This document shows, piece by piece, positions 2,731 to 14,476 of a stretch of DNA of 53,974 bases (position 1 is its first letter; every line of letters begins with the position of its first letter). The DNA lies in the NCBI GenBank assembly GCA_020850635.1, contig JADZEH010000029.1, forward strand, positions 1 to 53,974, in the 5' to 3' direction. Made by a program: the position numbers and the translations under genes. This stretch comes from Candidatus Doudnabacteria bacterium (GTDB lineage Bacteria > Patescibacteriota > Doudnabacteria > UBA920). Below the pieces are notes generated by a model. It saw nothing but the letters and a program-made list of their open reading frames with translations, ran no database searches and had not been told where the DNA came from.

Positions 2731-3120
2731 CTAGTGGACGAAGTGGTTTTCCCACCTGTCCGCGAGAGCTCGCAGTTGAGCCGGTCGTTGCTTCGGATCG
2801 TGGATTTTTCCGGTGGCGATTGCCGACCACATGATCGACTCGAATTTCTCGGCCTCGATCCTGAGCGCGATGGCGACTTCCGAGACGTTGCCCAGCACGA
2901 CCTGATTCATCAGGAGTGTGAATGGGTGGTCGTCGCTCATGAGCGCGCTCTTGTATTCTGGCGACCAGTATTCGATCCTTGCGAGTTCGTACGCCACGTG
3001 GTTGATGTACTCGCTACTGGTGAGGTACTGCACCTCTTCGGTGGGCTTTGCGTGCCCGTCGATATGGATCCGGTCTTCATCCTCCTCCCTTATGATGCTA
3101 AGAGTTTTGATGCGTCCCAT
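2731..3120 (-). CDS. Unknown protein, 129 residues
   Basis: I do not recognise a family. The sequence is soluble and mixed in charge, with an acidic patch (EEDEDR) near residue 13 and a largely helical look after residue 30; there is no signal peptide, membrane segment or cysteine pair. The ATG at 3120 is supported by AAGGAG about 8 nt upstream, which follows a leader of about 48 nt from a consensus promoter. It runs divergently from rpsJ and forms a probable two-gene unit with the 65-residue gene. The plus-strand frame through the same bases is rejected because promoter, SD and codon pattern all favour the minus strand. Confidence 0.78.
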   Translation of the reverse strand: MGRIKTLSIIREEDEDRIHIDGHAKPTEEVQYLTSSEYINHVAYELARIEYWSPEYKSALMSDDHPFTLLMNQVVLGNVSEVAIALRIEAEKFESIMWSAIATGKIHDPKQRPAQLRALADRWENHFVH

Positions 3121-3238: not shown

Positions 3239-3267
3239 TTGACAATAGTGGAAAAATCGATTAAAAT
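3239..3267 (+). promoter_or_regulatory. Promoter of the ribosomal protein operon
   Basis: TTGACA (3239-3244), 17 bp and TAAAAT (3262-3267). The leader of about 100 nt to the rpsJ ATG contains GCTAAT/ATTAGC and TTCGG-AGCT/AGCT-CCGAA inverted repeats (about 3278-3328), possible regulatory structure. No SD is visible before rpsJ. Confidence 0.75.
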
Positions 3268-3375
3268 TACGGAAATGGCTAATGTATTTAGATTAGCTGT
3301 ATTTCGGAGCTGTTAAAAAGCTCCCGAAAAGCTTATAGATAAGACAAATTCTTAATTTCCTTGTCAATCTCCACT

Positions 3376-3699
3376 ATGGAAAAGGCCGCAGTACAGCCGA
3401 AAATTCGTATCAAGATTCGCGCCTACGATCACAAGTTGATCGATCAAAGCGCGAAGCAGATTGTTGATACTGCAAAACGAACCGGTGCTCAGATTTCTGG
3501 CCCAGTCCCGTTGCCAACAGAGAAGACCAAGTATACCGTGCTTCGATCCACTTTCGTTCACAAAGACAGTCGCGAACAGTTCGAAATGCGGGTTCATAAG
3601 CGAATGATTGATATTTTGGAAGCAACTCCAAAAACCATCGATTCCTTGACCAACTTGAACCTTCCAGCCGGAGTAGATGTAGAGATTAAGATGTCCTAG
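3376..3699 (+). CDS. rpsJ: 30S ribosomal protein S10
   Basis: S10 is a 30S head protein. The conserved [14 protein letters not shown] opening and the [10 protein letters not shown] loop are clear. The ATG at 3376 is used rather than the upstream TTG because it gives 107 residues, close to the family length. It is the first gene of the ribosomal operon. A long structured gap to rplC (3700-3902) suggests that S10 and the rest of the operon are controlled partly separately. Confidence 0.97.
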
Positions 3700-3735
3700 T
3701 TACAGTTTAGATAAGTTCTGCACTTTTTAGTTAAA

Positions 3736-3843
3736 GAGCCCACAAGGCTCCCAAGTACAGATAACTATCTAACCCGCATAAGTTACAGAAAGCGTTTTCG
3801 TTTTCTTTACCTGATTATGGGCTAGATAATGGCTCGTTTTTTT
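3736..3843 (+). promoter_or_regulatory. Attenuator-like structured element between rpsJ and rplC
   Basis: GAGCC (3736-3740) can pair locally with GGCTC at 3746-3750 or at long range with GGCTC at 3831-3835. The long-range fold encloses a stem made of TATCTA, CCC and ATAA (3766-3781) paired with TTAT, GGG and TAGATA (3815-3828), and an inner GAAA-CG/CG-TTTC hairpin. It is followed at once by G and seven T (3837-3843). Mutually exclusive pairings in front of a T-run are the usual layout of a transcription attenuator. Regulation by a ribosomal protein is inferred. Confidence 0.6.
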
Positions 3844-3902
3844 ATTTCTGAGCGCAACTTCAGTTATTAACCCTGAAGCAATACGCACACACAAGGATAA
3901 TC

Positions 3903-14447: not shown

Positions 14448-14476
14448 AAACCGTCCCTTCTTGGGGCGGTTTTTGT
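14448..14476 (+). terminator. Terminator of the ribosomal protein-secY operon
   Basis: AAACCG-T-CCC pairs with GGG-G-CGGTTT around a short loop, followed by TTTTGTTT. Confidence 0.88.

Follow-up and report, generated by a model that had tools for sequence, protein, structure and literature searches.

The DNA analysed (hereafter the window) is a stretch of 53,974 nucleotides from a Candidatus Doudnabacteria bacterium, the genome of which amounts to 0.87 Mb in 38 contigs. The window carries an S10 gene cluster where the genes rpsJ (ribosomal protein S10, 3376-3699), rplC (L3, 3903-4577) and rplD (L4, 4599-5291) are all located on the plus strand, rplD being followed by the remaining cluster, which runs on to secY. 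In the set of sequences fetched for comparison, the best named match of the S10 protein is found on a Candidatus Uhrbacteria contig (73%). This match, the small size of the genomes and the long 23S rRNA genes of relatives (see below) agree with a placement in the CPR (Patescibacteria). A promoter-like sequence TTGACA-17-TAAAAT (3239-3267, plus strand, 11/12 matches) is localized upstream of rpsJ and probably represents the start of the transcript that reaches the element described below. Such a sequence also precedes rpsJ in most relatives of the families f1, f2, f3 and f5. In family f4, rpsJ is situated directly behind tuf and thus the element heads the rplC part of the cluster. Between tuf and rpsJ, the window also contains an ORF of 129 amino acids with no assigned function (2731-3120, minus strand), before which stands a perfect TTGACA-17-TATAAT.

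The gap between rpsJ and rplC (3700-3902) contains a covarying RNA switch, all parts of which are on the plus strand. The first part is a receptor-like hairpin, named P1 (3707-3772), which displays covariation in the relatives. Its lower stem is formed by the strand S1 (TTAGATA, 3707-3713) and by the positions 3766-3772 (TATCTAA), which together constitute a perfect inverted repeat of 7 bp. P1 also includes the two conserved strands of the core, GUUCUG (3715-3720) and AGAUAAC (3759-3765, with a two-base bulge at 3762-3763), and a tip hairpin GAGCC-cacaa-GGCTC (3736-3750). The strand S2 (TATCTAACCC, 3766-3775) is shared, as it is the partner either of S1 in P1 or of the strand S3 (GGGCTAGATA, 3819-3828). 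Indeed, S1 and the motif TAGATA within S3 are near copies, both complementary to S2. S3 also provides the 5' arm and the loop of an intrinsic terminator (3817-3843), composed of the stem-loop 3817-3837 and of the T-run 3837-3843. A local hairpin between S2 and S3 (3781-3812), the sequence of which is not conserved, fits both states. The helix 3766-3775:3819-3828 was assigned as the antiterminator because it blocks the compact terminator 3817-3837 and stops 8 nt short of the T-run. In the predicted structures, the antiterminator excludes both P1 and the terminator, which together represent one state.

An earlier note on this DNA, made from the sequence without database searches, had described an attenuator-like switch at this place. 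The letters are as it claimed, with GAGCC at 3736-3740, GGCTC at 3746-3750 and at 3831-3835, G at 3836 and T at 3837-3843. Two mutually exclusive folds do exist and are supported by the comparison with relatives, but they are not those that the note had named: its "large nested hairpin", taken for the terminator, is really the antiterminator helix, and the competitor of this helix is the S1:S2 repeat, not the proximal GAGCC:GGCTC pairing, which forms the tip of P1. Folded freely, 3701-3843 adopts P1 with the terminator at -34.3 kcal/mol, and the antiterminator state is close in energy with -31.2 kcal/mol. In 21 relatives the predicted minimum is sometimes the one state and sometimes the other, with a difference of mostly a few kcal/mol (some of the rows being distorted by the alignment). 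In the region, 17 terminator-like sites were counted versus 13.0 expected. The signal of the single sequence is modest (folding z = -1.97); it is the comparison with relatives that makes the case.

The class comprises 49 genomes of one order and five families, in which 43 rpsJ-rplC gaps are readable. All 43 gaps are long (89 to 453 nt), whereas the gap is shorter than 140 nt in most of the other bacteria of the comparison set. The P1 core, searched with a descriptor, is found in 38 of the 43 gaps, in all five families, and in none of 13 long control gaps; in 100 shuffled sets, it is found 0.7 times on average and three times at most. This descriptor was drafted after the sequences had been seen, so that its fixed letters are constant in part by construction; this does not hold for the complementarity of the lower stem, where the sequence was left free. 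The covariance model R1 matches the switch site in 24 genomes (E <= 1.2e-6), including two genomes outside the training set (G014 and G033). Elsewhere in the order, R1 has a second match in genome G003 (32.9 bits, E 0.013), which was rejected as spurious since it is located within coding sequence and on the other strand, and two weak matches with E above 0.3, of which the one in genome G011 is the switch site too. R1 does not reach the families f2 and f3, and with stricter filters it has no match at E 0.05 outside the class in the phylum sample.

The multi-alignment A1 was composed of 21 sequences from the families f1, f4 and f5. Without guidance, RNAalifold predicts P1 and the terminator from A1, and 19 of the 26 predicted pairs display compensatory changes. 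The consensus P1 consists of a lower stem, an internal loop, the core GUUCY/RGA-NA-AC with its two-base bulge, and a variable tip helix. When the named pairs of P1 and the terminator are counted in A1, 95.8% of the cells are paired, and nine pairs (21 cells) are doubly changed; all five measures exceed those of 500 shuffles (0/500) and of slid controls. The inner pairs of the tip hairpin covary as well, one of them being G-C in 15 sequences and C-G in five. The earlier note had proposed to look for covariation in the rpsJ-rplC gaps of relatives: it is found for the proximal GAGCC:GGCTC pairing, but the distal one is not conserved (32.9% of cells paired versus a shuffle mean of 31.8%). For the antiterminator S2:S3, 84.1% of the cells are paired and the covariation score is reached by two of 500 shuffles, only some of the measures exceeding the shuffles. 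This count is conservative, since the automatic alignment places some rows, including that of the window, one base out of register at S3 or at the terminator.

An alignment-free test was also realized, in which the strands of each species were compared with strands exchanged between species (the kinship of the species being ignored). The own strands pair better for S2:S3 (z = -6.6, 0/10,000), for S1:S2 (z = -3.9, 2/10,000; weak inside f1 alone, with 300/10,000) and for the terminator arms (z = -8.4, 0/10,000). A terminator hairpin rich in G+C, with the T-run directly behind it, is conserved in the relatives and was located in all 43 gaps, and a conserved and covarying helix that competes with it is present. 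The switch is a structured RNA, supported by covariation, that consistently stands upstream of ribosomal-protein genes.

The link between P1 and the terminator differs within the class. In the families f1 and f5 and in L118, L025 and L030, the pairing at the terminator involves the 3' strand of the lower P1 stem. In ten genomes of f2, it is the 5' strand of the core with the loop (GAUCC...) that pairs with GGGAUC at the terminator, and here again P1 and the antiterminator are mutually exclusive. The swap test gave 302/5,000 in f2, where the sequences vary too little for the test to be strong. Both wirings predict that termination is possible as long as P1 is intact, and read-through once P1 is opened. 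It seems rather probable to us, from the sequences compared, that these elements represent a new, class-wide ribosomal-protein leader of a CPR lineage, which lies inside the operon and sets S10 apart, and in which the link from the receptor hairpin to the terminator has been rewired (f1, f5 and some others versus most of f2) while the logic was kept. The family also provides a series made by nature, with a single conserved receptor hairpin that is connected to terminators by two or more routes. In genus g5 (L004 and L011), the shared-strand switch is kept (TAGATG / CATCTA / GATGGG) and the core is altered (CCUUC / GAUAACC), so that the receptor possibly exists in a naturally varied form there.

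The terminator ends at most 22 nt before the start of rplC in 17 genomes, and 59 nt separate the T-run from rplC in the window. In these 17 genomes a promoter would not fit behind the terminator, so that rplC can be expressed only via read-through. A search for promoter-like sites within 3700-3902 found none. The structures, their mutual exclusion, the covariation, the class-wide conservation and the lack of promoter room in many relatives are all evident in the sequences. We consider with fairly good confidence that the element acts in cis as a transcription attenuator on rplC and the subsequent genes. Most likely it is a ribosomal-protein leader of the S10 cluster under autogenous control, with L4 or L3 as the probable regulator. 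The attenuator reading of the earlier note finds support in the covariation, in the class-wide conservation and in the short distance between the terminator and rplC in many relatives; the partners that it named and the part that it took for the terminator had to be replaced.

In the proposed mechanism, RNA polymerase would transcribe rpsJ, after which P1 would form. When the regulator is scarce, the emerging S3 would displace S1 from S2, the antiterminator would form and transcription would continue through rplC, rplD and the subsequent genes. A regulator, probably a ribosomal protein encoded downstream and present in excess (L4 or L3), would bind P1 and hold it; with S2 occupied, S3 would fold into the terminator and transcription would stop after rpsJ. 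The holding of P1 would thus favour termination and constitute a negative feedback. The gene rpsJ, being upstream of the switch, is beyond the control by termination, and rplC would be the first gene under this control. The position of the switch behind rpsJ makes sense because rpsJ mostly has its own promoter-like sequence or, in f4, follows tuf. Three points are inferred: a ligand would bind at P1, its binding would favour termination, and this ligand would be L4 or L3. The core of P1 is the natural candidate for the binding site, since it is near-invariant and partly unpaired. Control by L4 or L3, which the earlier note had regarded as logical, appears plausible. L4 is the regulator of the S10 operon in E. 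coli, and L3 and L4 both act early in the assembly of the 50S subunit (PMC10931766). L3 is encoded by the first gene that follows the switch, and the ligand may also be another product of the operon. One element appears to command the transcription of the S10 cluster behind rpsJ. To our knowledge, little is known on how the parts of the ribosome are balanced in reduced, mostly uncultured bacteria of this kind, and an in-vitro test of the switch would require DNA but no culture of the host.

A fixed partial terminator after rpsJ would set a constant ratio between S10 and the later proteins free of any ligand, P1 and the antiterminator only tuning the speed of folding. The site inside the operon, with rplC reached by read-through, agrees with such a terminator, and internal terminators that set ratios in ribosomal-protein operons have been reported in an archaeon (PMC10450193). 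However, a fixed terminator has no need for a covarying lower stem of 6 bp, for a near-invariant bulged core and for a strand shared by two helices across five families, and we regard it as an unlikely explanation. An attenuator could also respond to another signal, i.e. a metabolite, a tRNA or the stalling of a ribosome. Riboswitches employ the same logic, with a receptor hairpin and a mutually exclusive antiterminator, but the core of P1 is small, the helix of its tip varies freely and the element is found only before ribosomal-protein genes. Moreover, none of the riboswitch or T-box models of Rfam is matched, and a casual inspection of the gaps revealed no short reading frame that is conserved, so that we judge such a signal improbable. 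A terminator that simply ends an rpsJ transcript, rplC having a promoter of its own, would be in line with the promoter-like sequence of rpsJ and with the 59 nt available in the window; the distance in the 17 relatives, too short for a promoter, and the gap of the window, where no promoter-like site was found, make it very improbable. Finally, the version of the earlier note, in which the distal pairing GAGCC (3736):GGCTC (3831) closes the terminator and the proximal one is the antiterminator, is hardly credible: the letters are complementary and the closing stem would adjoin the T-run, but the pairing is at the level of shuffles, the forced fold (-30.3 kcal/mol) is weaker than both other states and the aligned relatives display a compact local terminator instead.

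The preferred reading, an autogenous attenuator behind rpsJ, was compared with known systems. In the window and in seven relatives, no Rfam family reached its gathering score and no sensible weak match was detected. As the earlier note had pointed out, the place differs from that of the S10 leader of E. coli, which stands before rpsJ (PMC10931766). This leader also contains a conditional intrinsic terminator on the same cluster, with a regulator that is presumably encoded within the cluster, but its structure is unrelated as far as described (Rfam gives no match here, an Rfam model for that leader not being confirmed). In addition, L4 of E. coli was described as stabilising a NusA-dependent paused complex (PMC10931766), whereas the switch of the window displays an evident mutually exclusive antiterminator. 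Other likenesses concern the place or the kind of control. The rplJL leader of Bacillus subtilis, bound by L10(L12)4, exerts autogenous attenuation via the leader structure but concerns another operon, protein and lineage (PMC4538822). A candidate r-leader of L4 in Archaeoglobi is predicted directly upstream of rplC-rplD but is archaeal and borderline according to its authors, and a candidate of L2 in Alphaproteobacteria is predicted within the S10 cluster and not at its start, but before rplB and in another lineage (PMC7247131). These two belong to the 20 r-leaders that the survey of 2020 added to 35 earlier ones, and its main text contains no mention of rpsJ or Patescibacteria (PMC7247131). 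The usual definition of an r-leader refers to a 5' UTR at the start of an operon, whereas the present switch lies between rpsJ and rplC; in E. coli, intergenic regulatory sites have been described for both S7 and S8 (PMC2704228). In the open literature, no report of a switch between rpsJ and rplC was found (subscription papers were mostly outside the search), and the switch is probably new.

Mimicry of the rRNA site of the protein is common in r-leaders but is not required. A pattern scan of the 23S rRNA of relatives for a mimic of the P1 core gave only loose and scattered matches, none of them convincing. One of these, GGAAATC...GATCC (permuted, in two relatives), was taken as chance since GATCC at this position presumably pairs elsewhere, judging from the 23S rRNA of E. 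coli. The 23S rRNA genes of L147, L148, L149 and L132 span 3.4 to 4.6 kb versus 2.9 kb for the model, and the 23S rRNA of the host itself was matched in pieces at one contig end, which suggests insertions or introns in these genes.

Some observations concern the rest of the cluster. In the 5' UTR of rpsJ (3268-3375 in the window), several f1 relatives display TATTGCAAGTG followed by a hairpin of the form AAGGC...GCCTTATTTTAG, and GGAGCT...AGCTCC is present at about 3306-3324 of the window; this region may hold a second structured element in family f1. A strong terminator-like hairpin (14448-14472, 10 pairs followed by TTGTTT) is found directly behind secY and likely marks the end of the rpsJ-secY transcription unit, or else an additional control point. 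Finally, in family f2, a gene named by eye as glycerophosphodiester phosphodiesterase-like is situated between rplC and rplD and nearly overlaps rplD (L025:2190-2867; L028:840-1433, minus strand).
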